Source of the DNA: Lysobacterales bacterium
GTDB lineage: Bacteria > Pseudomonadota > Gammaproteobacteria > Xanthomonadales > Rhodanobacteraceae
Assembly (NCBI GenBank): GCA_015655335.1
Contig: JAATFF010000156.1
Location: 1-32,817 of the forward strand
Direction: 5' to 3'
DNA: 32,817 nt
The notes below the pieces were generated by a model. That model was given only the letters and a program-made list of their open reading frames with translations. It did not search any database and had not been told where the DNA came from. The position numbers were made by a program, and so were the translations under genes. The first letter of the stretch is position 1, and every line of letters begins with the position of its first letter. Shown here one piece after another: positions 5,914 through 26,953 of this stretch.

Positions 5914-5944
5914 TCCTTTATTACTTCGCACGGAGCACTGGTCG

Positions 5945-7168
5945 ATGAAGCGTGTCGTTATCACCGGCATGGGCGGCATTACACCACTGGGACACGATTG
6001 GTCGCAGATCGAGCCGCGCCTGCGCGACGGCCGCAACGCGGTACGCAACATGCCGGAATGGGATTTCTTCGACTCGCTCAACAGCCGCCTCGGCTGTCCC
6101 GTCGATGATTTCCAGATACCCGATTGGCCGCGCAAACATCTGCGCTCCATGGGCCGTGTGGCGCAACTGGCCGTCGCAGCCAGCGAACATGCCTTGCGCG
6201 ATGCAGGCTTGCTAGGCGATGCCACCATCGGCGATGGCCGCATGGGTGTGGCCTATGGCTCGTCGGGCGGCAGCATCGAGCCGGTGCGTGTCGTGGGCCG
6301 CATGCTGGAAACCGGCTCCATGCAAGGCGTAACCGCCACCAGTTATGTGCAGATGATGGCGCACACCACCGCCGTGAACGTTGGCGTGTTCTTTGGACTG
6401 AAGGGCCGCATCGTGCCCACCTCCAGCGCGTGCACGTCCGGCAGCCAGGCGATTGGTTACGGCTACGAAACCATCCAGCAAGGCAAGCAGAAGCTGATGC
6501 TATGCGGCGGCGCGGAGGAATTGTCCGGTCCCGGCGTGGCCGTGTTCGACACCTTGTTTGCAACCAGCACACGCAATGACGAAGCGAGCCTGACACCACG
6601 CCCCTTCGACCGCAGCCGAGACGGCCTGGTGGTAGGCGAAGGCGCCGCCACGTTAGTGCTGGAGGAATACGAGCACGCGCGCGCGCGCGGTGCGCGAATC
6701 TATGCGGAAGTCGTCGGTTTCGGCTGCAACTCCGATGGCAATCACATCACTCAGCCAACCAGCGAAACGATGGCTACGGCAATGCAACTAGCGTTGCAGG
6801 ATGCAGGCGTATCGGCCGATGCGATTGCTTATGTGAGCGCACACGGTACCGCGACCGACCGTGGCGACTTGGCGGAAAGCCACGCCACCGCCAATGTGCT
6901 GGGTTCGCGTGTGCCCATCAGCTCCATGAAAAGCTACGTCGGCCATACGCTGGGCGCCTGCGGCGCGCTCGAATCGTGGTGGGCGATACAAATGATGCGC
7001 GGCGGCTGGTTCGCGCCGACCATCAACCTCAGCGAGCCTGATCCGGCCTGCGCCGAACTTGATTACATTGTCGGCGCAGGTCGGGCGATTAGCGCGGGCT
7101 ATGTCATGAACAACAACTTTGCCTTCGGTGGCATCAACACGTCGTTGATCTTCAAGGCCTGGGACTGA
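5945..7168 (+). CDS. Beta-ketoacyl-ACP synthase (FabF-like; aryl polyene chain elongation)
   Basis: This 407-residue type II ketosynthase condenses malonyl-ACP with the growing acyl chain. The catalytic triad is complete: Cys163 in SSACTSGSQA, His300 in VSAHGTATDRGD and His334 in KSYVGHTLGACG, with the supporting Lys329. It starts MKRVVITGMGGITPLG, as FabF proteins do. ATG 5945 has GGAG about 9 bases upstream; the frame is open further upstream, but that part reads into the exporter gene and looks unrelated. It follows the exporter by 31 bases, one of the larger gaps in the operon. Confidence 0.93.
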   Translation: MKRVVITGMGGITPLGHDWSQIEPRLRDGRNAVRNMPEWDFFDSLNSRLGCPVDDFQIPDWPRKHLRSMGRVAQLAVAASEHALRDAGLLGDATIGDGRMGVAYGSSGGSIEPVRVVGRMLETGSMQGVTATSYVQMMAHTTAVNVGVFFGLKGRIVPTSSACTSGSQAIGYGYETIQQGKQKLMLCGGAEELSGPGVAVFDTLFATSTRNDEASLTPRPFDRSRDGLVVGEGAATLVLEEYEHARARGARIYAEVVGFGCNSDGNHITQPTSETMATAMQLALQDAGVSADAIAYVSAHGTATDRGDLAESHATANVLGSRVPISSMKSYVGHTLGACGALESWWAIQMMRGGWFAPTINLSEPDPACAELDYIVGAGRAISAGYVMNNNFAFGGINTSLIFKAWD

Positions 7169-7223
7169 TGTGCCATCCCTCGATGCCAATGCAAATTACA
7201 CTGCTTCGACAAGGAGCCATCGC

Positions 7224-7970
7224 ATGATGGATTTCCACATCGAACAGTGGCGCGCGTGGGCGCCGGGGCTGGACAGCGACGACGCGTGGCAGGCGTGGGC
7301 AACGCATCCGATCATCGTACCGGAGGGTGACGCGCAACCTTCTTGCGATTTCCTATCCGCCATGCAACGTCGCAGGCTCAGCCGGCTTGCGCGCATGACA
7401 CTGCACGTGGCATGGCCGCTGTGCGGCGAAGACGAACAGTTGCCGCTGGTGTTCGCATCGCGTCACGGCGAGACGCCACGCACTTTTGCGTTACTCAGCG
7501 AGGCGGCAGACGGACAGCCGTTGTCTCCCACTCAATTTGGCCTGTCGGTGCACAACGCGATTGCCGGCCAATGGTCGATTCTGCGCGGGCAGCGCGGCGA
7601 ATCCGTCGCCATCGCCGGCGAAGCCGACACGTTCGAGCACGCCATGGTGGAAGCGGCCGCGTTGCTGAGCGAAGGCGCACCGGCGGTATTGGTCGTGATC
7701 GCCGAAGAACGTCCGCCTGCTGCGTATGACGACTGGATCGACGATGTGCCGTTTTCGTATGCTCTGGCCTTGAGAGTAAGGGGAAGCGATATGGCCGACC
7801 ATGCGCAAGCCGGCGAGCGCTGGCAGCTACGCCTGGAGAACGGCCGCGACCATTCCGCAGACCGCACGTGGCCGCATGCGCTCGATTTCGTGCAGGCGTT
7901 GTATCGTCGGAAAGACACACTGGAACACCCATGGAAGACACGTCGATGGATTTGGCAGCGAGTTCCGTAA
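7224..7970 (+). CDS. Ketosynthase-like chain-length-factor protein (catalytic Cys absent)
   Basis: This 248-residue protein corresponds to the short beta-ketoacyl synthase N-terminal-like family (Ketoacyl-synt_2) found in aryl polyene clusters. It keeps family features such as FLSAMQRRRLSRLARM and FGLSVHNAIAGQ. Where an active ketosynthase has the nucleophile in TACxSG, it has AIAGEADTF, with Gly132 in the cysteine position. It also lacks the two His motifs of the C-terminal half. It therefore cannot condense by itself and probably pairs with one of the ketosynthases as a chain-length factor. An ideal AAGGAG (7211-7216) sets the start at 7224. It overlaps the next gene by 40 bases. Confidence 0.8.
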   Translation: MMDFHIEQWRAWAPGLDSDDAWQAWATHPIIVPEGDAQPSCDFLSAMQRRRLSRLARMTLHVAWPLCGEDEQLPLVFASRHGETPRTFALLSEAADGQPLSPTQFGLSVHNAIAGQWSILRGQRGESVAIAGEADTFEHAMVEAAALLSEGAPAVLVVIAEERPPAAYDDWIDDVPFSYALALRVRGSDMADHAQAGERWQLRLENGRDHSADRTWPHALDFVQALYRRKDTLEHPWKTRRWIWQRVP

Positions 7971-9006: not shown

Positions 9007-9539
9007 CCTCCATTTTGTTGCCGCTCACGGGGGTGCTCTATCCGTTCGTGGTCTATTTCGGCATGGATCGCGTGCCGCCGCCGATGTTTGCGCTAGTACT
9101 TGGCGCGATCTGGCTAATTCGCGCACCAAGCTTGCTGAAACAACCCGGCGGACGATGGATGCTCGGCGCTGCCCTCGTCTATTGTGCGCTGCTTGCATTG
9201 AGTGGCGAGGCTACGCTGCTTCGTTGGTATCCCACGCTGATAAGCGCCCTGCTGCTAAGTGCCTTCGGCTTGAGCCTGATTTACGGACCGCCGCTCGTCG
9301 AACGCATTGCGCGTGTGCGCGAGCCGGATCTGCCGGATGCCGCCATTCCCTACACACGCAAAGTCACGTGGGTATGGGTCGGATTTTTCGTGTTCAATGG
9401 CGTGGTGTCGGCGGCACTGACACTCTGGGCGCCGCTGTCCTGCTGGACGCTCTACAACGGGTTGCTGGTCTACTTCATCATGGGCGTGTTGTTCGTCGGC
9501 GAGTGGCTGCTGCGCCAGCGCTTAAGGGCAACCGCGTGA
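8994..9539 (+). CDS. Small integral membrane protein of aryl polyene clusters (COG4648-like)
   Basis: This 181-residue protein has about six predicted membrane helices: residues 5-22, 28-44, 53-70, 77-96, 123-143 and 150-170. A polar loop holding VERIARVREPDLPDAAIPYT lies between helices 4 and 5. No enzymatic motif is visible. Proteins of this kind sit next to the second ACP in aryl polyene operons and are usually annotated as conserved membrane proteins of unknown role. It overlaps the ACP gene by 13 bases and the next gene by GTGA. Confidence 0.75.
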   Translation: MRKLTSILLPLTGVLYPFVVYFGMDRVPPPMFALVLGAIWLIRAPSLLKQPGGRWMLGAALVYCALLALSGEATLLRWYPTLISALLLSAFGLSLIYGPPLVERIARVREPDLPDAAIPYTRKVTWVWVGFFVFNGVVSAALTLWAPLSCWTLYNGLLVYFIMGVLFVGEWLLRQRLRATA

Positions 9540-10171
9540 ACGCACAGCTCGCTAACATCGCAACGCATCTGCGCACCCACGCATGGGTGGACGATGCGAG
9601 CTGCGGCCATGCCGAAGCCGACATACCAGGTGCATTGCTTGCACTGAACCGCGAAGGTATCGATGCGCTCTGCCGCATGGGCCGTGAACGGTTCGTGCAT
9701 ACCTTGCAAGAGCATGTAAGCGCGGGCGGATATGACGGCTCACCACTCGTCTGGCGCTTGTTCGATGTCATGCCTGACTTGGCATCGACGCAGCACATCG
9801 ATGCATTGCTACAAGCACCTCTTCCGAGCGACACGCTGCCGTTGGACGAACATCAAGACGATGGCGTGTGGACCTTGGCGCTGCGCATTCCGCTCGACCT
9901 GATCTATTTTCCCGGCCACTTTCCACAGGCACCGGTTTTGCCTGGTGCGGTGCAGGTGGCGTGGGCGCTCTCGTTTGCCTCGTCGCTATTGGGCACACCG
10001 CAGCGCTGCCACGCGATGGAAGCACTGAAGTTTCAGCAACTGCTGCGTCCTGGCGACCGAGTCGATCTGACGTTGCGCCATGATCCGATTCGCCACAAGT
10101 TGCATTTCGCGTATCGCCACGGCGACAAGGCTTATTCCTCGGGTCGATTGGCATGGAACGCCGCATCATGA
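9536..10171 (+). CDS. FabZ-like dehydratase subunit (ApeI type) with N-terminal AMP-ligase-like remnant
   Basis: This 211-residue protein has two parts. Residues about 110-211 form a hot-dog dehydratase with FPGHFPQAPVLPG, including the catalytic-type His128. The acidic partner residue that FabA/FabZ carry 14 residues later is Ala142 (PGAVQVAWAL). Residues 1-95 resemble the C-terminal subdomain of aryl polyene AMP-ligases (GREREFVH-like helix near 49-55, then WRLFDVMPD at 73-81) but lack the GK lysine. Some clusters encode a ligase-dehydratase fusion, so this may be the tail of one whose main ligase part was lost. The start is GTG 9536, overlapping the previous stop (GTGA). Confidence 0.8.
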   Translation: MNAQLANIATHLRTHAWVDDASCGHAEADIPGALLALNREGIDALCRMGRERFVHTLQEHVSAGGYDGSPLVWRLFDVMPDLASTQHIDALLQAPLPSDTLPLDEHQDDGVWTLALRIPLDLIYFPGHFPQAPVLPGAVQVAWALSFASSLLGTPQRCHAMEALKFQQLLRPGDRVDLTLRHDPIRHKLHFAYRHGDKAYSSGRLAWNAAS

Positions 10172-11136
10172 ACGAACAAGTCGTCCAGGAACGCCACTGG
10201 TCCACGCACAAAGAGCGCGGCAGTTTTTTTCTGATGCGACTGACCGCGTTTGGTGTGCGCGTGTTCGGACGCCGATTGCTTGCGCCCTTGCTGTATCTGA
10301 TCGTGTTGTACTTCTTTGCATCAGCCCGGGGTGCACGGCGCAATATCTGGCAGTATCAAAGCTACCTGGCCGACTGGAGCGGTCGCGAATCACTGCGTCC
10401 GACATTTGGCAGCGTGTTCGGCCAGTTCATCGCTTTCGCCGACAACCTGCTGGATCGCCTCGACGTCTGGCGCGGTCGCCTGGGTTTCGAACAGGTGCAG
10501 TTGGTCGATCCGAGCGGCATACGCCCACGCTTGTTGCGCAGTCAGCAGGGCGGTCGAGGCGAAATTCTGGTCGTCACGCATTTGGGTAACCCCGACGTTT
10601 GTCGCGCCATGGCCGAGCTGGGCGAACAGGTTCCTCTCAACGTGCTGGTCCATAACCGGCATGTGGCGCAGTTCAATCGCCTGCTGGGCGAAGCCGGCGA
10701 TCGCAGCATGCGGCTGATTCAGGTCACCGAGTTGGACACGGCCATGATGCTGGATCTGTCGCAGCGCGTGGAACGTGGCGAATGGCTGGCGATCGCAGGC
10801 GATCGCGTGCCACTGCATGATGGCCGGCGCGTAGCGGTCAATTTCCTCGGGCATGCCGCGGCATTTCCCCAGGGACCGTGGCTGTTGGCCGGCCTGCTGC
10901 GTTGTCCGGTGAACCTGTTGTGTTGCCTGAAAGTAGATGGCCGCTACCGTATTCATCTCGACCCTTTCCTTGATAACGCGCACTGGGAACGCGGTCGGCG
11001 CGACGACGCGATCCAGAACTGGGCGCAGCGATACGCGGATCATCTCGCGCAACAGTGCCTGATGGCACCGCAGCAGTGGTTCAATTTTTACGCGTATTGG
11101 CAATCTGGCAAATCGGAGGCCCGCGATGCGAACTAG
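10168..11136 (+). CDS. LpxL/HtrB-like lipid acyltransferase (COG4261 type)
   Basis: This 322-residue inner-membrane acyltransferase resembles lipid A late acyltransferases. A hydrophobic helix lies near residues 28-52. The catalytic-type H-x4-D/E motif appears as VTHLGNPDVCRA, and a conserved GDRVP region sits near residue 210. In Enterobacteria the corresponding domain is fused behind a family 2 glycosyltransferase. Here that glycosyltransferase is the separate gene at 2064. It may acylate the sugar or glycerol anchor of the pigment. ATG 10168 gives a 4-base ATGA overlap; ATG 10153 would add five residues. Confidence 0.87.
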   Translation: MNEQVVQERHWSTHKERGSFFLMRLTAFGVRVFGRRLLAPLLYLIVLYFFASARGARRNIWQYQSYLADWSGRESLRPTFGSVFGQFIAFADNLLDRLDVWRGRLGFEQVQLVDPSGIRPRLLRSQQGGRGEILVVTHLGNPDVCRAMAELGEQVPLNVLVHNRHVAQFNRLLGEAGDRSMRLIQVTELDTAMMLDLSQRVERGEWLAIAGDRVPLHDGRRVAVNFLGHAAAFPQGPWLLAGLLRCPVNLLCCLKVDGRYRIHLDPFLDNAHWERGRRDDAIQNWAQRYADHLAQQCLMAPQQWFNFYAYWQSGKSEARDAN

Positions 11137-11587
11137 CGGCGTTCTACACCAGACCGTGGAAATCGTGGTGCCGTTCTTCGACATCGATTCGATGGACGTG
11201 GTTTGGCACGGGCACTACGTGAAATATCTCGAAGTAGCGCGCTGCGCGTTGCTCGACGATATCGGCCACAACTACACGCAGATGAAAGCTTCCGGTTATG
11301 CGTGGCCGGTGATCGATTTGCAGCTGCGTTACGTACAGGCCGCTCGCTTCGGCCAGCGCATTGCCGTTCGCGCCGATCTTATCGAGTGGCAAAACCGTCT
11401 GTTGATCCATTATCTGATTCGTGACGTCAGTAGCGGTCAACGCCTTACTCGTGCGAGCACAGTACAGGTTGCGGTGCAGCTGTCGAACGGCGAGATGCAG
11501 CTGGTGTTGCCCAACGTGTTCACCGATGCGGTCGAACGCCGGCTCCACGATGTTTCGCACCCCCACTCTTCTTCGGTCGCGACATGA
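11126..11587 (+). CDS. Acyl-CoA/acyl-ACP thioesterase (4HBT/YbgC-like)
   Basis: This 153-residue cytoplasmic hot-dog thioesterase has the family motif near its N-terminus: FFDIDSMDVVWHGHYVKYLE, with Asp19 as the likely catalytic acid and the HxxY helix behind it. Aryl polyene clusters carry one such gene, thought to release the finished acyl chain or proof-read stalled ACPs. It overlaps the preceding acyltransferase by 11 bases and the methyltransferase by ATGA. Confidence 0.88.
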   Translation: MRTSGVLHQTVEIVVPFFDIDSMDVVWHGHYVKYLEVARCALLDDIGHNYTQMKASGYAWPVIDLQLRYVQAARFGQRIAVRADLIEWQNRLLIHYLIRDVSSGQRLTRASTVQVAVQLSNGEMQLVLPNVFTDAVERRLHDVSHPHSSSVAT

Positions 11588-12303
11588 ATTACGCCAGCTC
11601 TACATATGTGGAGGAAACCCGCATCGGTTTCCATTTCCTACGCACCCATACCTGGCAGCACCATGTGTTGCGCGTGGCGATCAACGATTTGAAGCGGTTA
11701 GCTGGCGAGCCGCCTTCACAGGGTGGCAGTTTGCTCGATGTCGGATGTGGCCAGGGGAAATCGTTGCGCCTCTTGCGCGATGCATTCCAACCGGCGCGGA
11801 TGGTGGGGCTGGATGCCGATCCGCACAGCATCAGCCTATCCGAGGCGGAGGCGACGCGCGAAGGCATTCGGGCGGAATTCCTCACTGCTGATTGCGCAAA
11901 AATTCCGTTGCCAGATGCCAGCATCGACATCGTGTTCTGCCATCAGACCTTCCATCATCTCGTGGAACAGGAACATGCACTGGCAGAATTCTGGCGCGTG
12001 CTGAAACCCGGTGGCTTGCTGCTATTTGCGGAGTCCACCAAGGCCTATATCGACACGTGGGTGATTCGCTGGTTCTTCCGGCATCCGATGGAAGTGCAGA
12101 AAAGCGCGGAAGAATATCTGGACATGTTGCGCAAGCAGGGCTTCGTGTTTGGTCCGCAGAACGTTTCCTTTCCCTATCTTTGGTGGAGTCGCTCGAAGGA
12201 TTTCGGTCTACTTGAGCGTTGGGGTTTACGCGCACCGCCTCCGCCCGGACAGCGCGAGGAAACGTTGGTGAACGCTGCTGCATGTAAGCCGCAGGTTTTA
12301 TGA
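11584..12303 (+). CDS. Class I SAM-dependent methyltransferase (aryl polyene cluster)
   Basis: This 239-residue Rossmann methyltransferase has SAM motif I LLDVGCGQGKS (50-60), the acidic residue GLDADP at the end of strand 2, the TADCAKIPLPDASIDIVFC segment and the post-motif WRVLKPGG. In other aryl polyene clusters a methyltransferase of this kind modifies the aryl head group, for example by O- or ring methylation. The position modified here cannot be told. ATGA overlaps exist at both ends. Confidence 0.88.
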   Translation: MNYASSTYVEETRIGFHFLRTHTWQHHVLRVAINDLKRLAGEPPSQGGSLLDVGCGQGKSLRLLRDAFQPARMVGLDADPHSISLSEAEATREGIRAEFLTADCAKIPLPDASIDIVFCHQTFHHLVEQEHALAEFWRVLKPGGLLLFAESTKAYIDTWVIRWFFRHPMEVQKSAEEYLDMLRKQGFVFGPQNVSFPYLWWSRSKDFGLLERWGLRAPPPPGQREETLVNAAACKPQVL

Positions 12304-13490
12304 ACACTTACCTGAATGCGCTGGGAGTGATCTGCAATCTTGGCGTGGGCAAGTCCGCCGTTGCCGAAGCGTTGTTCATGGGCGACTGCAGTAGGATTCA
12401 CCCCGAGCAGGGCTGGATTCCCGATCATGCTCCGCCATTGGGCGCCGTGCATGCGGAACTGCCGCCGATACCGACTTCGCTGGCTGATCGCCGCGACAAC
12501 CGCAACAACCGCCTGTTGCTCGCCGCCGTGCAGGAAATCGAAGCGGACGTCCGCGCAGCGATCCAACGCTATGGAAGCACGCGCATCGGCGTGGTGCTAG
12601 GTACCAGCACCACCGGCATCGAAGAAGCGACGCAAGGCATCGGCGCCTACCGTCGCGATGGCGCGTGGCCGCAGGATTACCGTTACTCGCATCAGGAACT
12701 GGGAGCGCCTGCGGCGTTTCTCGCGGAATGGCTGGAACTCGGCGGCCCTAGCTACAGTATTTCCACCGCCTGCACTTCCGGCGCGCGCGCCCTGCTCAGC
12801 GCACAACGACTGCTGCGGCTTGGACTTTGCGATGCCGTGTTATGTGGTGGCGTGGACACGCTGTGTCGGCTGGCCATCAATGGTTTCCACGCGCTGGAAG
12901 CGGTGGACATGCAACCTTGTGATCCCTTTTCCAAACATCGCCGCGGCATCAATATCGGTGAAGCCGCTGTCGTGTTTCTGATGACGCGCGAGGCAGGCCC
13001 GGTACAACTGCTGGGCGGCGGCGCGAGCTCGGATGCCTATCACATGTCTTCACCGGACCCACAAGGAACCGGCGCGCAAAAAGCCATGCAGAATGCCTTG
13101 CGCCATGCGGGCGTCGACGCCGCACACATCGATTACATCAATCTGCACGGTACCGCTACCGAGCACAACGACAGCATGGAAAGCGTGGCCGTAGCCGCCA
13201 CCTTTGGACAAACCGTGCCGTGTTCGTCCACCAAGTCCCTGACGGGCCATACGCTGGCCGCAGCGGGCGCATTGGAAGCGGCATTCTGCTGGCTAAGCCT
13301 CACCGACAGTCGTGCCGAACGGCGACTTCCTCCGCATATATGGGATGGCGAAGCGGACCCTGCGCTGCCGCCCTTGGCTTTCGTAAACATTGGCGACCAT
13401 TTACCCGCAGGCGGTCGACGCTACTTGATGAGCAACTCGTTCGCCTTTGGCGGCAATAACAGCAGCCTGATTCTCGGTGACGCAGCATGA
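12300..13490 (+). CDS. Beta-ketoacyl-ACP synthase (second ketosynthase of aryl polyene cluster)
   Basis: This 396-residue type II ketosynthase has an intact triad: Cys158 in STACTSGARAL, His283 in NLHGTATEHND and His317 in KSLTGHTLAAAG, with Lys312. It is clearly diverged from the ketosynthase at 5945, so the operon has two active condensing enzymes plus the Cys-less short protein at 7224. One of the two probably pairs with that protein for iterative elongation and the other may start or prime the chain. The DH and KR genes follow directly with short overlaps, suggesting a KS-DH-KR elongation block. Confidence 0.92.
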   Translation: MNTYLNALGVICNLGVGKSAVAEALFMGDCSRIHPEQGWIPDHAPPLGAVHAELPPIPTSLADRRDNRNNRLLLAAVQEIEADVRAAIQRYGSTRIGVVLGTSTTGIEEATQGIGAYRRDGAWPQDYRYSHQELGAPAAFLAEWLELGGPSYSISTACTSGARALLSAQRLLRLGLCDAVLCGGVDTLCRLAINGFHALEAVDMQPCDPFSKHRRGINIGEAAVVFLMTREAGPVQLLGGGASSDAYHMSSPDPQGTGAQKAMQNALRHAGVDAAHIDYINLHGTATEHNDSMESVAVAATFGQTVPCSSTKSLTGHTLAAAGALEAAFCWLSLTDSRAERRLPPHIWDGEADPALPPLAFVNIGDHLPAGGRRYLMSNSFAFGGNNSSLILGDAA

Positions 13491-13954
13491 AAACATGGCC
13501 GATTGCCGAGGTCGTGCCGCATGCGGGCGAGATGATTCTGCTCGATAGCATCGAGGCCATCGAAGCCGAGCGCATTGTCTGCATGAGAACGGTGCGAGCA
13601 GACAGCCTTTTTGTCGACGCCGACGGCAGCCTGCCTGCATGGGTCGGCGTGGAATTGATGGCGCAAAGCATTGCGGCATGGGCCGGTTGCCGTGCACGTG
13701 CCGACGACCAACCGGTACAGCTGGGATTTCTATTGGGTACTCGACAGTATGCGTGCAATGTCGACGCGTTCCCGCCCGGCAGTCGCCTATGCATGGAAGC
13801 GGTACGGTCGTTCCACGACGAGCACGGAATGGGCGTATTCACCTGCAGCATCGATGCACCAGGCATACGTGCCGACGCTCGCCTTACCGTATATCGGCCG
13901 CGCAACGCGGATGCATTTTTTGAACAGATTGCGGGGGAACCGCTGCATGTCTGA
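13487..13954 (+). CDS. Dehydratase subunit (ApeP/COG4706-like hot-dog)
   Basis: This 155-residue hot-dog protein is related to 3-hydroxyacyl-ACP dehydratases. It has an N-terminal VVPHAGEMILLD and the helix AWVGVELMAQSIAAW, in which Glu56 matches the acid of FabZ (EAMAQ). At the place where FabZ has its catalytic His, 14 residues earlier, it has Phe42. It therefore appears to be the partner of the dehydratase subunit at 9536, which has the His but lacks the acid. ATGA overlap with the ketosynthase and an 8-base overlap with the ketoreductase. Confidence 0.85.
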   Translation: MKTWPIAEVVPHAGEMILLDSIEAIEAERIVCMRTVRADSLFVDADGSLPAWVGVELMAQSIAAWAGCRARADDQPVQLGFLLGTRQYACNVDAFPPGSRLCMEAVRSFHDEHGMGVFTCSIDAPGIRADARLTVYRPRNADAFFEQIAGEPLHV

Positions 13955-14675
13955 AACGATTCTGGTCACCGGCTCCAGCCGCGGCATCGGCCGCGCCATC
14001 GCCTTGCGCCTGGCACACGCTGGCTACGATCTGGTGCTTCATTGCCGTAGTCGGCGCGATGAAGTCGAGCAAGTGCGTGCATCCATTCGCGAGCTCGGTC
14101 GCGAAGCACGCATCTTGCAATTCGACATCGCAGACCGAGCCGCTTGTGCTAGCGCACTCGAGGCAGATGTTGATGCTCATGGTGCGTATTACGGTGTCGT
14201 CTGCAATGCTGGCTTGACGCGCGACGGCGCTTTTCCTGCGCTTACCGGCGATGATTGGGATCAGGTGTTACGAACCAATCTGGACGGTTTCTACAATGTG
14301 TTACATCCGGTGATCATGCCGATGATTCGTCGTCGCAGCTCTGGACGCATCGTGTGCATCACCTCCGTATCGGGCCTGATCGGCAATCGCGGACAAGTGA
14401 ATTACAGCGCATCCAAAGCTGGCGTGATCGGCGCCGCCAAAGCGCTGGCGGTGGAACTGGCGAAGCGCAAAATTACTGTCAACTGCGTGGCGCCGGGACT
14501 GATCGATACCGATATGATCGGCGAAGACGTACCGCTGGACGACATCGTAAAAATGATCCCCATGCAGCGCGCCGGCACCGCGGACGAAGTGGCCGCGGCG
14601 GTGCAATTTCTGTTGAGCGCGGAAGCCGGCTATATCACCCGTCAGGTTTTGGCAGTGAATGGCGGACTCTGCTGA
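13947..14675 (+). CDS. 3-oxoacyl-ACP reductase (FabG-like SDR)
   Basis: This 242-residue short-chain dehydrogenase reduces the beta-keto group after each condensation, using NADPH. The cofactor-binding TGSSRGIGRAIA is at residues 8-19 and the NAG motif at 87-89. The catalytic residues are Asn111, Ser140, Tyr153 and Lys157 (ITSVSG and YSASK). It ends NGGLC, as FabG-type proteins often end in a glycine-rich tail. The start ATG 13947 overlaps the dehydratase stop; the longer open frame upstream reads the dehydratase gene out of frame. It completes the KS-DH-KR set. Confidence 0.93.
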   Translation: MSETILVTGSSRGIGRAIALRLAHAGYDLVLHCRSRRDEVEQVRASIRELGREARILQFDIADRAACASALEADVDAHGAYYGVVCNAGLTRDGAFPALTGDDWDQVLRTNLDGFYNVLHPVIMPMIRRRSSGRIVCITSVSGLIGNRGQVNYSASKAGVIGAAKALAVELAKRKITVNCVAPGLIDTDMIGEDVPLDDIVKMIPMQRAGTADEVAAAVQFLLSAEAGYITRQVLAVNGGLC

Positions 14676-15270: not shown

Positions 15271-16428
15271 ATGCGCCCGTTCCCCCTCGGTGAAGAGATC
15301 GACCTCCTGCGCGAAAGCGTTCATGCCTTCGCGGAAAAGGAGATCGCGCCGCGTGCCGATCACATCGATCGCGAGAACCTGTTTCCGCATGACTTGTGGC
15401 GCAAGATGGGCGACATGGGCCTGCTCGGCGTCACCATTCCAGAGGAATACGGCGGCACTGGCATGGGCTTCCTGGCGCACATGGTGGCGATGGAAGAAAT
15501 TTCGCGCGCCTCCGGCTCGGTGGGCCTCTCCTACGGCGCGCACTCCAACCTCTGCGTGCAGAACATCTTCCACAACGGCAACGAAGCGCAACGCCGCAAG
15601 TACATCCCCAAGCTGTGCTCGGGCGAATACGTAGGCGCGCTGGCGATGAGCGAACCGGGCGCAGGCTCGGACGTGGTCGGTTCGATGACGTGCAAGGCGG
15701 AGCTGCGCGGCGATGCATGGGTGGCCAACGGCTCGAAGATGTGGATCACCAACGGACCCGACGCGGACGTGTTGCTGGTGTACATGCGCACGGCACCGCG
15801 TGTTGCGGGCAGCCGCTGCATGACGGCCTTCATCGTCGAAAAAGGCATGAAAGGTTTCAGCACCGCACAGAAACTCGACAAACTCGGCATGCGCGGCTCC
15901 AACACCTGCGAACTGGTGTTCGAGGATTGCGAGATTCCCGCTGAGAACATCGTCGGCGAAGTAAACGAAGGCGTGCGTGTGCTGATGAGCGGCCTGGATA
16001 CGGAACGCCTTGTTCTTTCCGGCGGCCCCATCGGTCTGATGCAGGCAGCACTTGATATATCGCTTCCTTACGTCCGTGAACGCAAGCAGTTCAATGCGCC
16101 AATCGGCACGTTCGGCGTGATGCAGGCGAAGATCGCCGATATGTACACCAAGCTGCAAAGCTCACGCGGATTTGCCTATATGGTTGCGAAGGAATTCGAT
16201 GTAGGCGTGAGGTCACGCATCGATCCGGCAGCCTGCTTGCTCAACGCATCGCAAAACGCCGTGCAAGTGGCGCTCGAAGCGATCCAAACGCTAGGCGGCA
16301 ATGGTTATATCAACGAATTCCCCGCTGGGCGGTTGTTGCGTGATGCCAAGCTCTACGAAATTGGTGCCGGCACCAATGAAATTCGCCGCATGCTGATCGG
16401 CCGCGAATTGTTCCACGGCAAAGCCTGA
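15271..16428 (+). CDS. liuA: Isovaleryl-CoA dehydrogenase
   Basis: This 385-residue FAD enzyme oxidises isovaleryl-CoA to 3-methylcrotonyl-CoA in leucine breakdown and passes electrons to ETF. Typical acyl-CoA dehydrogenase signatures are present ([24 protein letters not shown]). Two features point to the isovaleryl type: the catalytic Glu245 sits in the helix [12 protein letters not shown], and the usual catalytic site near the C-terminus reads [12 protein letters not shown] with Gly in place of Glu. AGGAG 6 bases before ATG 15271 supports the start. A TACAAT at 15231-15236 could be its -10 box, though no good -35 is seen. Confidence 0.95.
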
Positions 16429-16447
16429 TAACGCGTTTCTTCGCGAA

Positions 16448-16476
16448 TAAAAAAGCCCGCCATTGGCGGGTTTTTT
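16448..16476. terminator. Bidirectional terminator between liuA and the autotransporter gene
   Basis: A 6-bp GC stem (16456-16461 with 16465-16470) with loop ATT is flanked by an A-run (16448-16454) and six T residues (16471-16476). It can end both the plus-strand liuA transcript and the converging minus-strand gene. Confidence 0.85.
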
Positions 16477-16492
16477 ATTCCTGCACGAGTGC

Positions 16493-19405
16493 TTAGAAAT
16501 ACAGGCTGTAGTTCAACGTGCTCATCGTGGCATGCTCGTGTTGGGCATCGTATTCGTCGACGCCCAGCGAAAGATTCGAACGCGCAGAGAAACGCCAATC
16601 AAGCGATAGCCCGGCGATGCTACCGTATCGCGACAAGCCAATGCCCTCCACCGGCGACCACTGTTGCAACGCTTCGAAGCTGGCATTCGGCAACACGCCA
16701 CGCATGGAAAGCGCGTCTTCCCACAGCAATCGGGTTTGCACAGTCAGGCTGCTGCCGTCAGACAAATTCCATTGACGCGAACCACGCATGCCCACACCGG
16801 CTTGCCAGCGCTCGATGTTCTGCTGATCGGACGAAAGGCCGAAGCCGCCGCCGCCGAGCTCGTTGAAACCATCGCGTTCAACATACGCGTACTCGGCATT
16901 GACGTACGGCGTGAGCTTCCACTTACCCGCATTGAATCGATAACCGCTTTCGCTGTACGCCACGTCGTAACGACCATTGCTAAAACTGGATACACCGGCA
17001 AATTGGCCGCCGAGCTGCAGTTCCCGGCGCGTATCCTGCCAGTCGGTACCGGCACCGACGCGTCCCATCACATACCAGTTGTTCTGGATGAAACCGCCAT
17101 AGAGCATGCCCTCCATCGAATGACTGAAACCTTGATCCGCTTCCTGCGCGAGGCTACCTAGACCCTGGCTCTGGCTAAGCGCATAACCCATTACGCCACC
17201 ATTGCTGAAGCCGCGGTCGCCACCGACCATGGTGCCATTGAGGTCAACGCCCATGCTGTCAAAGCCCGTACGCGACATGTTCCCTTGATAGCCGATGTTC
17301 TGCGACCAGGCGTGAAACTTGTTCATGTCAAATTGCGGTGGCGCGTCCAACAGTGCATCGAATCGATCGGACAAAGCGCGGGTATCCGCATCGATCGCTT
17401 CAAACGTCATCGCAGCGCTTGCGGCATACATCTCGCCGGACAGGCTATCCAGCGACTGTTGCATTTGGGAAGCGCTGGAGATGTGCTGAATCTGCCCTGC
17501 TTCATTCACGAAGCTGCTTGGCAACGGCTGCGCCGAAGACGCTACGGATCCTTGCACAAGTCCGTTGATGGAATTAAAGGCGTTCTGCACGCGCTCTGCC
17601 GCAGCAAAGGTTCCAATCGAATACGACATGCCTTGAAGCTGTACCAGATTGACGCCCGTGATATTCAAATAAACGTCGTTGGGGTCGTAGGAAAGCGTGG
17701 CCTGCAAAGCCAATGGGGCTGCGCCCGACACGCCGCCCGTAAACGTGCCAGTCAACCCTTGTGCCGCGGTCAGAATAGGAGTGGTCTCGGTCGTCCCTTT
17801 TGTGTAGGTGAAGCTCGCATCGGTGCTATAGACGTAGACGGCCGGTTTCGTTCCCGTGCCTGTGGGCGCGATCGTGGCCTTGCCCGACACCTGCAACACA
17901 GAACCCAGCGATACGTCGAACGTGCCCCCGGTCTGCGTGTAATTGCCGTTGACCGCTAGATTGGTGCTGCCAACGGCCATCCCGCCACCATTGTTGGTGA
18001 CGCTTCCGCCGATCGACGCAGGCGTCGTCGCATTGCCTTGCACTGCCAATATTCCATTTACGCCAATCACTGCGCCGCCGGTGCCCAATGACACCGCGTT
18101 GAGTGTGCCGCCCGTTACCGTGGTCAGTCCCGTATAGGTCGACGGCTGTGTGAGGTTGAGCGTGCCTGGACCATCCAGCGTGAGGCCTCCCAAACCGGAG
18201 ATCGGGTTGTTCCAATCCGACGTGCCCGTAAAACCGACTTCGACGGTGCCCCAGTTGAATTGCTCCGGCCCATTCACCGCAGCACCGACATTAAGCACGC
18301 CATAACCGAAGGTTGGATTCGGCTGCGAACCGCCCAACGGAGTGGCCGTTCCCAGCAACGTCTGCTGCACCATGTAATTGGAGAAATACGGATACGCCTG
18401 CCATACCAACGCTGCAGCACCGGACACCGCAGGCGCTGCAAACGAAGTACCTTCCACGATGTAGTAGGTGGGATTGGTCGTGCTGGCGAGCGTATCCTTA
18501 TCCAGCACGATCACATCGCCCGGCGCAGCAAGGCAGTAGCTCATCGCGATGCCGCACTTGTTCGAATAGCTGTCGAGCTGCGTAGGGCTGTTGCTGTTCA
18601 GCGCCACCGCGACTAGCCAGCCTTTTTGAAGGCTCGCATCGTTCGCTACCGTGGGAAGCGAAGCGATTGTGCTGGGATTGGCTGCCGAATCGTTACCAGC
18701 CGCGAACACCACCAGGCCGCCATGCGTTTCGACGAACGGCGCATAGGCGGTATCGAAAGCTGCCGTGGTGGCGGTATCGGTGCTGCTCCATGAGATACCG
18801 CCCCACGAATTGTTCATGATCTGTACGCCGGAACTGATCAGCTGCTGATTCACTTGCCCCAGCGGTACGGCATCAGCCCCCGTCACCTGCGTCGGCGCCG
18901 TAGAACCGTTATCGTCGGGTGCGTTGTCATCGATGATGCGTGCCGAGACCAGCTCAGCCCCCGGTGCGATACCGCCCGCAAATTGACCGAAGGGTACGCC
19001 CGCGGCAATCTGCGATACCCACGTGCCGTGCCCGACGACATCGGGAATGCTGGTGTTGTTTTGGGTCGGATCGACGTCGATGTATTCCGTACCCACACGA
19101 CCGGCAACCGCTGGGTTGTTCGGCATGATGCCGCTATCGACGACACCGATCGTGACACCCGCTCCGGTGTAACCCTGCGTATGCGCCGCGTAGGTGTTCG
19201 TCAAGGACAGCTGCGCATTGATGGGCGGGTTAGGAACAGGCGCACTTGAGGAAGGTGCAGGTGCCGGTGCAGGTGCCGGTGTCGACGTAGGCGACGATTT
19301 GACGTTGCTGTTGCCACCGCCTCCGCCGCAGGCGCTCAATCCAAGCGCCAGACCGATCAGTACCGCCATGTCACGGCGACGCCACGCCTGCATTCCCGTT
19401 GCCAT
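16493..19405 (-). CDS. Lipidated subtilisin-like serine protease autotransporter
   Basis: This 970-residue type V secreted protease has an N-terminal signal with lipobox LSAC (Cys26), then a Pro/Ala-rich linker (39-61). The S8 subtilase domain has its triad at Asp90 (VVDSG), His126 (GHGTWVS) and a Ser near 320 (GTSFAAPAVSG), with the oxyanion Asn in AAGND. A beta-helical stalk has passenger-type repeats (LTTVTGGTLNA). A C-terminal beta-barrel of about 270 residues ends in aromatic YSLYF, as outer-membrane proteins do. A lipobox on a subtilisin autotransporter recalls NalP of Neisseria and SphB1 of Bordetella, which cleave other surface proteins. Its targets here are unknown. It interrupts the leucine genes on the opposite strand. 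Confidence 0.93.
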   Translation of the reverse strand: MATGMQAWRRRDMAVLIGLALGLSACGGGGGNSNVKSSPTSTPAPAPAPAPSSSAPVPNPPINAQLSLTNTYAAHTQGYTGAGVTIGVVDSGIMPNNPAVAGRVGTEYIDVDPTQNNTSIPDVVGHGTWVSQIAAGVPFGQFAGGIAPGAELVSARIIDDNAPDDNGSTAPTQVTGADAVPLGQVNQQLISSGVQIMNNSWGGISWSSTDTATTAAFDTAYAPFVETHGGLVVFAAGNDSAANPSTIASLPTVANDASLQKGWLVAVALNSNSPTQLDSYSNKCGIAMSYCLAAPGDVIVLDKDTLASTTNPTYYIVEGTSFAAPAVSGAAALVWQAYPYFSNYMVQQTLLGTATPLGGSQPNPTFGYGVLNVGAAVNGPEQFNWGTVEVGFTGTSDWNNPISGLGGLTLDGPGTLNLTQPSTYTGLTTVTGGTLNAVSLGTGGAVIGVNGILAVQGNATTPASIGGSVTNNGGGMAVGSTNLAVNGNYTQTGGTFDVSLGSVLQVSGKATIAPTGTGTKPAVYVYSTDASFTYTKGTTETTPILTAAQGLTGTFTGGVSGAAPLALQATLSYDPNDVYLNITGVNLVQLQGMSYSIGTFAAAERVQNAFNSINGLVQGSVASSAQPLPSSFVNEAGQIQHISSASQMQQSLDSLSGEMYAASAAMTFEAIDADTRALSDRFDALLDAPPQFDMNKFHAWSQNIGYQGNMSRTGFDSMGVDLNGTMVGGDRGFSNGGVMGYALSQSQGLGSLAQEADQGFSHSMEGMLYGGFIQNNWYVMGRVGAGTDWQDTRRELQLGGQFAGVSSFSNGRYDVAYSESGYRFNAGKWKLTPYVNAEYAYVERDGFNELGGGGFGLSSDQQNIERWQAGVGMRGSRQWNLSDGSSLTVQTRLLWEDALSMRGVLPNASFEALQQWSPVEGIGLSRYGSIAGLSLDWRFSARSNLSLGVDEYDAQHEHATMSTLNYSLYF

Positions 19406-19478
19406 AAACGCCTACCCCATTTCGCTATGTTGATCCCGACCATCTACCGGATGGCCGCAACATAAATGCCAGCTTCCG

Positions 19479-19507
19479 GCTATAGCTTTGGGCTGAGTTT
19501 GTCACAA
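19479..19507 (-). promoter_or_regulatory. Candidate promoter of the autotransporter gene
   Basis: Read on the minus strand, TTGTGA (19507-19502) and TATAGC (19484-19479) are 17 bases apart. This resembles a sigma70 promoter with about four of six matches in each box. It lies about 75 bases before the start of the protease gene. Confidence 0.4.
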
Positions 19508-19550
19508 CAAGAGAACGCTGGAACACGCGATTTCTCACGAAAAATTACGT

Positions 19551-19580
19551 TTGCTGCTTTGCATCGAGGGCTGCGATAAT
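19551..19580 (+). promoter_or_regulatory. Candidate promoter of the thiolase gene
   Basis: TTGCTG (19551-19556) and GATAAT (19575-19580) are 18 bases apart, a reasonable sigma70 pair. It lies 55 bases before the thiolase start, in the divergent region shared with the autotransporter gene. Confidence 0.5.
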
Positions 19581-19635
19581 TCGCAAGTTATTTTCCCTGG
19601 CGCGATGCGCCTTAAAGCTCCTCCGGAGAACCCTT

Positions 19636-20820
19636 ATGTCGGACGTCAGCGTTGTCATCGTCGGTGCCAAGCGCACTGCCATCGGCTCTTTTCTCGGCCA
19701 GTTCACCGGCGTGCCCACCCCTAAACTCGGCGCCACCGCCATTCGCGCTGCGCTGGAACAATCCGGCATAGCCGCCGGGGACGTCGGCGAGGTGATCATG
19801 GGTTGCGTACTGCCCGCCAACCTCGGCCAGGCACCGGCGCGCCAGGCCGCGCTGCACGCGGGGCTGCCCCCGGCCACGGGCTGCACCACTGTCAACAAAG
19901 TCTGTGGTTCGGGCATGAAGGCCATCATGTTTGGCCACGACCTGATCAAGGCCGGCTCCGCCAGCGTGGTCGTAGCCGGTGGCATGGAATCGATGACCAA
20001 TGCACCGCACATGGTCAATGCGCGCTCGGGTATTCGCTATGGCGATGGGCAGCTGGTCGACCACATGGCCTGGGACGGCCTGACCAATCCCTATGACGGC
20101 AAGGCCATGGGCGTATTTGGCGAACTGTGCGCCGACAAGTACCACTTCAGCCGCGAAGAACAGGATGCTTTCGCCATCGAATCGGTGAAGCGCGCTCAGG
20201 CCGCGCAGGCATCGGGCGCCTTCGCCGGCGAGATCGTGCCGGTGACCGTATCCGGCCGCAAAGGCGACGTGCAGGTCGATACCGATGAGCAACCAGGCCG
20301 TTCGGACATCGCCAAGGTTCCTTCGCTCAAGCCAGCCTTCCGCAAGGAAAACGGCACGATTACCGCCGCCAGTTCGTCGAGCATTTCCGACGGTGCGGCA
20401 GCGGTCGTGCTCTTGTCAGCTGACGACGCCAAGACACGTGGGGTGAAGCCGCTGGCACGTATCGTTGCCCACGCCACGCATTCGCAAGAACCGGAATGGT
20501 TCACCACCGCACCCGTATCGGCCATCAGCAAAGTGCTCGAAAAGGCCGGCTGGAAGGTGGGCGACGTCGACCTGTTCGAGGTCAACGAAGCCTTTGCCGT
20601 GGTGGCCATGGCACCCATGCGCGAACTCGGCATCGCGCATGAAAAGCTCAACGTCAATGGCGGTGCCTGCGCTCTGGGCCACCCTATTGGCGCCAGTGGC
20701 GCCCGATTAGTCGTGACCTTGCTCAACGCATTGAAAACCCGTAATTTGCGGCGCGGTGTGGCAGCATTGTGCATCGGCGGTGGCGAAGCCACTGCTATCG
20801 CTATAGAACGTTTGGACTAA
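19636..20820 (+). CDS. atoB: Acetyl-CoA C-acetyltransferase (thiolase)
   Basis: This 394-residue degradative or biosynthetic thiolase interconverts acetoacetyl-CoA and two acetyl-CoA. The acylated Cys90 is in VNKVCGSGMKA, His349 in GACALGHPIGASG and the second acid/base Cys379 in LCIGGGEA. Within this neighbourhood it would finish ketone-body carbon from HMG-CoA lyase. A CoA-transferase to activate acetoacetate is not in the window. GGAGAA (19625-19630) supports the ATG at 19636. Confidence 0.93.
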   Translation: MSDVSVVIVGAKRTAIGSFLGQFTGVPTPKLGATAIRAALEQSGIAAGDVGEVIMGCVLPANLGQAPARQAALHAGLPPATGCTTVNKVCGSGMKAIMFGHDLIKAGSASVVVAGGMESMTNAPHMVNARSGIRYGDGQLVDHMAWDGLTNPYDGKAMGVFGELCADKYHFSREEQDAFAIESVKRAQAAQASGAFAGEIVPVTVSGRKGDVQVDTDEQPGRSDIAKVPSLKPAFRKENGTITAASSSSISDGAAAVVLLSADDAKTRGVKPLARIVAHATHSQEPEWFTTAPVSAISKVLEKAGWKVGDVDLFEVNEAFAVVAMAPMRELGIAHEKLNVNGGACALGHPIGASGARLVVTLLNALKTRNLRRGVAALCIGGGEATAIAIERLD

Positions 20821-20836
20821 GCTGCATAGGCAATGA

Positions 20837-20870
20837 CCGGCCAGCGTCATGAAATCCTGGCCGGCGGTTT
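20837..20870 (+). terminator. Hairpin after thiolase, weak terminator
   Basis: A perfect 8-bp stem (20837-20844 with 20857-20864) with a 12-base loop is followed by CGGTTT. The T-run is short, so termination may be partial. Confidence 0.4.
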
Positions 20871-20906
20871 AATGCGGCTTAAAGTTGTTCGTTGAAACAG
20901 GTAGCG

Positions 20907-20934
20907 TTGTTAACACGAAAGCGCTATTAATAAT
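20907..20934 (+). promoter_or_regulatory. Weak candidate promoter of the Ala-rich lipoprotein gene
   Basis: TTGTTA (20907-20912) and an AT-rich TAATAAT (20928-20934) are about 15 bases apart. The spacing is short for sigma70, but this is the best-looking site in the 150-base gap. Confidence 0.25.
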
Positions 20935-20970
20935 CCGCCAATTGGCATTCCACGGCTAAGGAGATCCATC

Positions 20971-21357
20971 ATGAAGTTCACGCGTACCCTTCTCGCCTCC
21001 GCGCTTGTCGCGTTGCTGGCGGCTTGCAGCAATGGCGCGCAGGATGCCGCGCAGGACGCACAGAAGTCGGCTGACCAGGCCCAGCAGGCAGCTACTCAGG
21101 CTGCTGACCAGGCTCAGAAGGCCGCTGCCGCTTCCACGGCCGCCACTCCGGCTGCTGCCCCGGCCTCGACCGCTGCCGCCGCTCCGGCCGCTGCTCCGGC
21201 TTCCACCGCTGGTGCCGCCCCGGCTTCCACCGCCGCTCCGAGCGCTGGCGATGCGATGAAGAGCGCAGCTGCTGACGCTTCCGACGCTGCCCACAAGGCC
21301 GCTGACGCTGCCAAGTCCGCTGCAACCGCTGCCAAGGACGCTGCGAAGGGTAACTAA
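20971..21357 (+). CDS. Ala-rich small lipoprotein of unknown function
   Basis: This 128-residue protein has a lipoprotein signal peptide with lipobox LLAAC (Cys19). The mature part consists almost wholly of Ala with Lys, Asp, Gln, Pro and Ser: an amphipathic helical stretch (24-50), a Pro/Ala/Thr linker (about 51-93) and a second Ala/Lys/Asp helix (about 95-128). The layout suggests two helices or coiled coils joined by a flexible linker, anchored in a membrane. It resembles small Lpp-like or stress-associated lipoproteins only in composition. A good AAGGAGAT (20958-20965) and a strong terminator suggest a well-expressed single gene. No function can be assigned. Confidence 0.82.
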   Translation: MKFTRTLLASALVALLAACSNGAQDAAQDAQKSADQAQQAATQAADQAQKAAAASTAATPAAAPASTAAAAPAAAPASTAGAAPASTAAPSAGDAMKSAAADASDAAHKAADAAKSAATAAKDAAKGN

Positions 21358-21380
21358 TCCTTCGTTCAAGCTTCCAACGA

Positions 21381-21411
21381 AACCGGCCGCCTTAGGGCGG
21401 CCGGTTTTTTT
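21381..21411 (+). terminator. Strong rho-independent terminator after the lipoprotein gene
   Basis: An 11-bp GC-rich stem (21381-21391 with 21396-21406) with loop TTAG runs into T residues up to 21411. Confidence 0.9.
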
Positions 21412-21503
21412 ATGGCGGCGTTAATTGCCTGGACGTCGTTATACAGATGATCCCCGCACACCGTTATCATCCACGTTTGCCCAGACGGTCGCAGCACGAA
21501 ACC

Positions 21504-23111
21504 ATGAGCGCCCTCACCTCGCAGATCGATCCCCGTTCCCCCGAATTCCAGGCCAGCAGCGCCCAATTGCGATCGCTGGTGGATGACCTGCAGCGCGAAA
21601 TGGCACGCAGCGCCGAAGGCGGTGGCGCCAAAGCTCGCGAGAAGCACACCGCCCGCGGCAAGCTATTGCCACGCGAGCGCATTCGCGCCCTGCTTGATCC
21701 GGGCTCGCCTTTTCTGGAGCTGTCGCCGCTGGCTGCTCATGGCATGTACGACGACGCCGCGCCGGCCGCCGGCATCATCACTGGCATCGGCCATGTGTGT
21801 GGCGTGGAAGTGGTGGTCGTAGCGAACGACGCCACGGTAAAAGGCGGCACGTATTTCCCGATGACGGTCAAAAAGCACCTGCGCGCGCAAGAAGTCGCGT
21901 TGGAAAACCGCCTGCCGTGTATCTACCTGGTCGATTCCGGCGGCGCCTTTTTGCCAATGCAAGACGAAGTCTTTCCGGACAAGGAACACTTCGGCCGCAT
22001 CTTCTACAACCAGGCGCGCATGTCAGGGCTTGGCATTCCGCAAATCGCCGTGGTGATGGGCCCCTGCACCGCTGGTGGCGCTTACGTACCGGCGATGAGC
22101 GATGAAACGATCATCGTGCGCGAACAGGGCACCATCTTTCTCGGCGGTCCGCCGCTGGTGAAAGCCGCCACGGGCGAAGTGGTGGACGCCGAAGCGCTTG
22201 GCGGCGCGGATGTCCACACATCCGTTTCAGGTGTCGCCGATCACTTTGCGGAAAACGATGCTCACGCGTTGTCGATCGCTCGCGATATCGTCGCCAGCCT
22301 CAATCGCCGTAAAGCAATGCCTCTTGCCTTGCGCACACCCGTCGAACCGCGCTACGCAGCGGAAGAACTGTATGGCGTGATTCCTCAAGATACGCGCCGC
22401 CCGTTCGACATCCGCGAAGTGATCGCTCGCATCGTCGACGGCTCCGAATTGCATGAATTCAAAGCGCGCTACGGCAAAACGCTGGTCTGCGGCTTTGCGC
22501 ATATCCATGGTTATCCGGTCGGCATTATCGCCAACAACGGTATCCTGTTCTCTGAGTCGGCGCTCAAGGGCGCGCATTTCATCGAACTGTGCAACCAGCG
22601 CAATGTACCGTTGGTGTTCCTGCAGAACATCACCGGCTTCATGGTCGGCAAGAAATACGAAAACGCTGGCATCGCGAAAGACGGCGCGAAGATGGTCACC
22701 GCTGTCGCGTGTTCGCATGTACCGAAATTCACCGTGGTAATCGGCGGCAGTTTCGGCGCCGGTAATTACGCCATGTGCGGCCGCGCCTATGGCGCACGCT
22801 TTCTGTGGATGTGGCCGAATGCGCGCATCAGCGTGATGGGCGGCGAGCAAGCAGCCAGCGTGCTGGCGACCGTAAAGCGCGACGGCATCGAAAGTTCCGG
22901 CAAAAGCTGGAGCGCCGACGAAGAAGAGTCATTCAAAGCACCGATTCGCGAGCAATACGAACGCCAGGGTCATCCGTACTACGCCAGCGCACGACTGTGG
23001 GACGACGGTATCATCGATCCCGCAGATACGCGTCGCGTGCTCGGTCTTGCGATTTCCGCCTCGCTCAATGCGCCGATCGAACCGCAACGCTACGGTGTAT
23101 TCCGTATGTGA
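21504..23111 (+). CDS. liuB: Methylcrotonyl-CoA carboxylase, carboxyltransferase (beta) subunit
   Basis: This 535-residue subunit transfers CO2 from carboxybiotin to 3-methylcrotonyl-CoA in leucine degradation. The family pattern is clear: N-terminal [15 protein letters not shown], then [17 protein letters not shown] in the first crotonase-like domain, [16 protein letters not shown], and [15 protein letters not shown] in the second domain. The length matches MccB/LiuB. ATG 21504 is preferred to the upstream ATG 21447 because homologues start near here, although no clear Shine-Dalgarno precedes it. Its alpha subunit, liuD, is about 5.4 kb downstream rather than adjacent. Confidence 0.94.
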
Positions 23112-23449
23112 TGCTGTTGGCGCGCGCAGCTATCGCGCGCCAACTTCGTCGCCAAGTCGTCAGCAACTCGCAAGTTTGCTCGCAACATCTCATCGCATCG
23201 ACATCTTCTTCACGTTCACTAAAACGTGACGAAGGCGCACGCCACATAAACGCACGTGGCGCTGCCATCCCAACGAAAGATTGATGTCATCTGCAACGGT
23301 TGTGATCGCCGCTTCGGCTGACGTGCACGCATACGCGTGTGCCGAGGGGAAGACCGGGGGGACCGGTCAAGCTGAAGCCGCCCAGGGAGAGCGGCAGTCG
23401 ATGACGCAGGGAGATGCGTGAATGCCTTCCGACTACCTAAGGATTAAAC
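23112..23449 (+). promoter_or_regulatory. Gap between liuB and the PLD-like gene: hairpin and structured leader
   Basis: No gene is supported here. A 10-bp perfect stem (23117-23126 with 23134-23143) directly follows the liuB stop, without a T-run. The second half (23314-23419) holds four successive hairpins described separately. The middle part (about 23150-23300) shows nothing I recognise, and no clear promoter was found. Confidence 0.5.
23314..23419 (+). promoter_or_regulatory. Structured leader with three GGA-loop hairpins
   Basis: Four stem-loops lie in a row just before the PLD-like gene. The first pairs 23314-23318 with 23341-23345, with inner stem 23326-23330/23335-23339. The second pairs 23352-23357 with 23363-23368 around loop GGGGA. 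The third pairs 23377-23381 with 23391-23395 around a loop containing AGGGAGA. The fourth pairs 23404-23408 with 23415-23419 around loop GGGAGA. GGA exposed in hairpin loops is the known target of CsrA/RsmA. It could be a regulated 5' leader or a separate small RNA. Confidence 0.45.
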
Positions 23450-24460: not shown

Positions 24461-24488
24461 GTCGCACGTAGAACCGATGCCGGAGACC

Positions 24489-24523
24489 AAGCGCATGGGT
24501 GCAACGCCCATGCGCTTTTCTTT
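24489..24523 (+). terminator. Rho-independent terminator after the PLD-like gene
   Basis: An 11-bp perfect stem (24489-24499 with 24507-24517) with a 7-base loop is followed by TTTTCTTT. It lies just before the end of the converging minus-strand small membrane protein gene. Confidence 0.8.
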
Positions 24524-24528
24524 CGCGC

Positions 24529-26914: not shown

Positions 26915-26931
26915 GGTTGGTTACGCTTCTA

Positions 26932-26953
26932 AATAAGAATGGTTCGCATTGTA
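26932..26953 (-). promoter_or_regulatory. Fur-box-like site overlapping the feo promoter
   Basis: The 19 bases 26932-26950, read on the minus strand as AATGCGAACCATTCTTATT, closely match the Fur-box form AATGAGAATnATTCTCATT. A TACAAT (minus strand, 26953-26948) that could be the -10 box overlaps it. It is 17 bases before the feoA start. Iron-bound Fur would block transcription from here. Confidence 0.7.

Follow-up and report, generated by a model that had tools for sequence, protein, structure and literature searches.

Dehydratases of the FabZ and FabA type adopt the hot-dog fold, and the FabZ homodimer contains two active sites. The dehydratase domains of polyketide synthases (PKS) and of the animal fatty acid synthase (FAS) are double hot-dogs with one site, to which the first fold contributes the His and the second fold the acid. 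The mycobacterial HadAB enzyme, similarly to ApeI/ApeP, is a heterodimer of two hot-dog proteins, but both of its catalytic residues are derived from HadB, so that its halves, unlike those of ApeI/ApeP, are not complementary. The closest described system is that of structure 6QSR, 'The Dehydratase Heterocomplex ApeI:P from Xenorhabdus doucetiae', released in 2019, and a 2019 paper in the Journal of the American Chemical Society is said to be the study of the Xenorhabdus enzymes behind it. A single active site was reported for ApeI/ApeP in 2021 and, in Acinetobacter baumannii, ApeP is the partner of an ApeH-ApeI fusion in which the ligase part is N-terminal on ApeI (PMC8041823). Here, these systems are compared with an ApeI/ApeP pair encoded in a 32,817-nucleotide stretch of contig JAATFF010000156.1 of a Lysobacterales bacterium (GCA_015655335.1), hereafter termed the window. 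The two proteins very probably represent the subunits of an ApeI:ApeP 3-hydroxyacyl-acyl carrier protein (ACP) dehydratase heterodimer, with a single active site combining ApeI His128 and ApeP Glu56. Since a split single active site is already known for this family, the window pair is a further example thereof, in which the acid of the second site has been lost. The relevant features are as follows:

9536..10171, + strand: ApeI-type dehydratase subunit, 211 amino acids, GTG start, bringing the catalytic His (PF22818 and 6qsr_A matches)
9917..9919, + strand: codon of His128, within the GHFPQAPVLPG motif (His in 162/162 ApeI)
9959..9961, + strand: codon of Ala142, where the second site would have its acid (6qsr_A and 3esi_A have Asp)
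13487..13954, + strand: ApeP-type dehydratase subunit, 155 amino acids, ATG start, bringing the catalytic Glu (PF22817 and 6qsr_B matches)
13610..13612, + strand: codon of Phe42, in the loop standing in place of the FabZ GHFP motif (aligned column 91 % Phe)
13652..13654, + strand: codon of Glu56, within VELMAQ (Glu in 162/162 ApeP)

The membership of the window pair in the two families was observed directly. The 9536 protein scored 51.8 bits against PF22818 (ApeI-like; curated Pfam cut-off 28.5) and the 13487 protein 72.8 bits against PF22817 (ApeP-like; cut-off 27), while their best solved matches were 6qsr_A (E 2.6e-12) and 6qsr_B (E 8.2e-18), respectively. Both proteins fail the FabZ family TIGR01750, with scores of 24.5 and 15.3 bits, respectively, against an NCBIfam cut-off of 155.15. 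The genes are separate and 3.3 kb apart, so the pair does not constitute a one-chain double hot-dog. The GTG start of apeI shares four bases with the stop of the upstream gene (open reading frame (ORF) end 9539), as does the ATG of apeP with that of its own upstream neighbour (ORF end 13490). The predicted fold of the window ApeI is of moderate confidence (predicted local distance difference test (pLDDT) 74.4; predicted template modelling score (pTM) 0.54), with residues 122-138, including His128, below a pLDDT of 50, and aligns with 6qsr_A over 101 residues (Z 11.2; root-mean-square deviation (rmsd) 3.1).

The dehydratase domains of the window pair and of 6QSR are homologous: in both, ApeI has the His, while ApeP has the Glu and an equivalently placed Phe. 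They differ in that 6qsr_A carries Asp fourteen residues after the His, where the window protein has Ala, and in that chain A comprises 119 residues, while the window ApeI has an additional tail of 96 residues. With the FabZ/FabA homodimers the pair shares the hot-dog fold, the GHFP motif (in ApeI) and the E-x-x-A-Q motif (in ApeP). However, His and Glu occur in one chain in all thirty FabZ loci retrieved, including that of the window genome itself, whereas they are split between two chains in the window, where neither subunit has the FabZ-type His and Glu fourteen residues apart (Ala142 in ApeI; Phe42 in ApeP). As a control, FabZ was found in 41/41 related genomes. The original prediction, made from the sequence alone, had recognised a GHFPxxPxxPG motif, His128 and Ala142 in the 9536 protein, all of which are borne out by its translation. 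Its mention of paired Xenorhabdus ApeI/ApeP dehydratases agrees with 6QSR. For the 13487 protein, Glu56 in VELMAQ and, by a count of fourteen residues, Phe42 were correctly placed, but Phe as the replacement of the His is not general, as the residue fourteen positions before the Glu, which is Phe in the window, is another in many ApeP proteins and the loop has been rebuilt. The absence of HF from the 25 residues preceding the Glu is therefore the more reliable description of ApeP. The Phe42 column (91 % Phe) is kept more strictly than drift would give, and a Phe at this place may give the polyene tunnel its shape or serve as a plug for the dead site.

ApeI/ApeP pairs were surveyed in three samples, namely 100 relatives, 397 phylum genomes and, among named genomes, the best 80 of 284 relatives. 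Among the 100 relatives, 46 genomes had an ApeI match and 46 an ApeP match, from which forty regions (L061-L100) were taken in addition to the window. Not taken were genes on different contigs (G030, G091), weak matches, and genomes matching one family only (e.g. G069, G233, G153, G253, G278). The 196 units with both subunits were reduced to 166 by collapsing identical pairs, and to 162 by removing four FabZ proteins matched by both profiles (L316, L317, L318, L321). Of these 162 non-redundant pairs, one is that of the window, 39 come from the relatives sample and 49 from named loci, with 73 others making up the remainder. Two of the contigs encountered have titles that look odd: L236 (JAHREJ010000002.1), titled 'Bacillus subtilis', encodes an ApeP with 53 % identity to the Rhodanobacter query, while L197 (CAJCJD010000219.1) is titled 'Candidatus Eremiobacteraeota'.

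The catalytic His is present in all 162 ApeI proteins and the Glu in all 162 ApeP proteins, while an HF motif within the 25 residues before the Glu was found in 0/162 ApeP proteins. The His and the Glu are the most conserved columns of their subunits (rank 1/92 and 1/134, respectively), with the Phe42 column of ApeP at rank 18/134 and the acid column of ApeI at 53/92. The residue fourteen positions after the ApeI His varies (Asp 71, Ala 28, Gly 20, His 17, Glu 13, Gln 10, Asn 1, Arg 1 and Lys 1), the 17 pairs in which His replaces the second-site acid including L284, L273 and L301. The alignment of homologues proposed in the original prediction thus upholds the His in every ApeI, the Glu in every ApeP and the absence of HF from ApeP, but an acid is kept in 84/162 ApeI proteins, so that the counter-evidence it had named, each subunit alone keeping both residues, is seen on the ApeI side only. 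Consequently, its strict two-way complementarity applies to the window and to 78/162 pairs, in which the two residues are exactly split between the subunits, and not to the other 84 or to the crystallised ApeI, with its Asp. The single working site that it derived from His128 and Glu56 is supported by the 6QSR orthologues, by the statement in PMC8041823 and by the invariance of both residues, although it is not new.

By analogy with the orthologues, on which the complex, its single site and its reaction are modelled, ApeI and ApeP would pair their two hot-dog folds in a heterodimer, in which just one of the two interface sites expected in a FabZ homodimer would be functional. At this site, ApeI His128 and ApeP Glu56 would act on the 3-hydroxyacyl-ACP derived from the ketoreductase encoded at 13944 to give a 2-enoyl unit, and repeated rounds of dehydration would lead to the polyene. 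The second site would lack a His, making the acid from ApeI dispensable, and the window ApeI has Ala in its place.

Although inherited, the second-site acid of ApeI is labile. Across the genus of the window, the residue corresponding to Ala142 is Ala in eleven of fifteen cases, Gly in two, and Glu and Asp in one each. On the pair tree, a quick tree of about 230 columns inferred without a mixture model, the presence or absence of the acid changes at least 18 times, this being a minimum in which loss and gain are indistinct, as compared to a mean of 54 and a lowest value of 44 in 200 shuffles. The acid may drift because the other site lacks a His on the ApeP side, which would leave it without a catalytic job. 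Testing revealed no tie between acid loss and the loss of the ApeH fusion: the acid is kept in 33/54 fused and 51/108 unfused rows, and an independent-pairs sign test gave a median p of 1 (166 rows, with the four FabZ proteins still included).

ApeI and ApeP are encoded by one ORF in two of the fifteen genomes of the G036 genus group, and the two fusion proteins are 73 % identical over 283 residues:

L182:9593-10456: fused ApeI-ApeP, 287 residues, Rhodanobacter sp. DHB23
L190:9590-10453: fused ApeI-ApeP, 287 residues, metagenome-assembled genome HJP_bin44, labelled R. denitrificans

No other match was found in these two genomes at E 1e-10. Between the last ApeI strand and the ApeP core, the L190 fusion has no ATG, GTG or TTG codon and the L182 fusion has one ATG, while in Rhodanobacter sp. 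PCA2 (L187) apeI and apeP overlap by the four bases ATGA. The fusions carry the His half first and the acid half second, the same order as in the PKS and FAS dehydratase domains. The predicted fold of the fusion (pLDDT 69.3; pTM 0.59) aligns over most of its length with PKS dehydratase double hot-dogs (Z 14.1-16.6 and 8-16 % identity among the matches listed), including 5hst_B (residues 14-270; Z 16.6; rmsd 3.6; 237 aligned), while its first half aligns with 6qsr_A (Z 16.9; rmsd 1.8; 110 aligned). Such likeness of predicted folds does not prove function and, unlike in the PKS and FAS domains, the halves in the window are separate chains and the acid is a Glu with FabZ-like surroundings. An ApeI-ApeP fusion was not met among the matches listed for the aryl-polyene, ApeI and ApeP literature searched, in the portions of text available.

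The additional tail of the window ApeI is a ligase relic, as indicated by a hidden Markov model (HMM) and by the fold model:

9536..9823, + strand: first 96 residues of ApeI, left over from the C-terminal subdomain of the adenylating ligase ApeH, without the catalytic Lys

Positions 2-96 of an HMM built from 58 ApeH tails are matched by the part of the window protein that precedes its ApeI domain, with an E-value of 3.5e-12 (Z 100) and a best reversed control of 0.14, the E-values of such small custom searches holding for those sets alone. The tail itself has no Pfam match. In the fold model, residues 1-95 align with the C-terminal subdomain of acyl-CoA synthetases (ANL ligases), as in 3gpc_B (Z 11.3; rmsd 2.3; 90 aligned), and other ANL enzymes are matched at a Z of about 10-11. 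A full ApeH ligase is fused to ApeI in 58/202 loci with an ApeI-profile match (duplicates and the four FabZ proteins included), or 54/162 in the clean set, and the catalytic Lys (N-x-x-G-K), which is present in all 58 ApeH-ApeI fusions, is absent from 12/12 aligned tails. Among the fifteen positive genomes of the window's genus, nine match ApeI from residue 1-4 and so have the whole tail, and six match just from residue 10-99, two of the latter with an internal stop codon. Against seven orthologues of this genus, the ratio of non-synonymous to synonymous substitution rates (dN/dS) is 0.12-0.31 for the tail, in keeping with purifying selection, and 0.04-0.16 for the dehydratase part, these values being rough as synonymous sites are near saturation (dS >0.8 throughout).

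The ApeH ligase was not found within the cluster in the window. However, another contig of the same genome encodes a stand-alone ApeH-like ligase of 474 amino acids with an intact N-E-T-G-K motif (G000:C131:4904-6328, L352), the neighbours of which read as housekeeping genes on translation (topoisomerase I-like and purD-like). This enzyme is a candidate starter-unit loader for the window cluster. The simplest story would be that the ligase job moved to this unlinked gene, while the C-terminal subdomain was left attached to ApeI, where it would still fold and be selected. This differs from A. baumannii, where the ligase is described as working (PMC8041823), whereas the window retains the C-terminal subdomain without its Lys and has a separate ligase elsewhere. 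A relic ligase tail on ApeI was likewise not met among the matches listed in the available portions of the aryl-polyene, ApeI and ApeP literature searched.

Several observations weigh against a heterodimer with a single site. The 84 ApeI proteins that keep the His plus an acid fourteen residues later might also work as homodimers, and His residues are scattered in the ApeP loop, although at most 10/162 share any one offset, between 9 and 19 residues before the Glu. Furthermore, the residues lining the 6QSR site were taken from the sequence alignment and a published sentence, and the fusion model is just moderately confident. The one-site conclusion nevertheless stands, because none of the 162 ApeP proteins has HF before its Glu, despite the ApeI proteins that have both residues. 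The same observation bears on the proposal that ApeI and ApeP each form a homodimeric dehydratase of their own, for different chain lengths, for which the retention of both residues in those ApeI proteins and the listing of Escherichia coli ApeI and ApeP among seemingly duplicated functions (PMC8253772) could be cited. In the window, the ApeI lacks the acid and the ApeP lacks the HF, leaving neither homodimer with a full FabZ-type site, and as the orthologues were moreover crystallised as a heterocomplex, this proposal is very unlikely.

Still less probable is that ApeP is a non-catalytic scaffold and that ApeI borrows its acid from a different hot-dog protein, for instance the housekeeping FabZ, an intact copy of which (L327) is encoded in the genome of the window, given that a scaffold would not need the Glu that forms the top-conserved column of ApeP. 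A comparably slight chance is accorded to a decaying pair, in which Ala142 and the relic tail without its catalytic Lys would mark a cluster falling out of use; the low dN/dS values of both parts, rough as they are, and the presence of ApeI in 15/16 genomes of the genus argue otherwise. The ApeI:ApeP heterodimer with a single site is thus retained as the reading of the window pair.

The pair is embedded in a cluster that further encodes:

5942..7168, + strand: ketosynthase (NF006587, 711.4 bits, cut-off 470)
7170..7970, + strand: short ketosynthase/chain-length-factor-like protein of the ApeC type (PF13723, 242.8 bits, cut-off 25)
11126..11587, + strand: thioesterase (4HBT_2; family match)
12300..13490, + strand: second full ketosynthase (NF006618, 504.8 bits, cut-off 407)
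13944..14675, + strand: ketoreductase of the ApeQ type, FabG family (family matches)

An ACP and a LolA-like protein are also encoded, as identified by family matches, while the translations of further cluster genes read as a methyltransferase, acyltransferases and an exporter of the RND (resistance-nodulation-division) type. Judged by this gene content, the cluster, which belongs to a Dyella species, is an aryl-polyene/xanthomonadin-type II PKS. On translation, a 970-residue protein with a subtilisin-like start and an autotransporter-like end is encoded opposite to the direction of the cluster (window 16493-19405, - strand). The translated genes across window positions 15271-31390 include an acyl-CoA dehydrogenase, a thiolase, two carboxylase subunits, an enoyl-CoA hydratase and an HMG-CoA-lyase-like protein, and probably represent a leucine/isovalerate degradation set.

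Taken jointly, these data allow a tentative history, perhaps slightly more doubtful than credible, in which ApeP lost its His early and the orphan acid of ApeI was eroded many times, the genes came to adjoin one another, as in the overlap of Rhodanobacter sp. PCA2, and were fused with the His half first, while the shed ligase left behind a selected tail that maybe docks the carrier protein or the partner subunit. If true, living species would show the path from a symmetric two-site dimer of the FabZ type, via an asymmetric one-site enzyme, to a single-chain double hot-dog. With the functional His and Glu invariant in 162 pairs while the dead-site acid drifts, the family represents a natural experiment that tells required residues from dispensable ones. 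The Rhodanobacter fusions provide a ready single-chain construct for structural work on the polyene dehydratase, as well as a testable scenario in which PKS-like dehydratase domains may arise from two FabZ-like genes.

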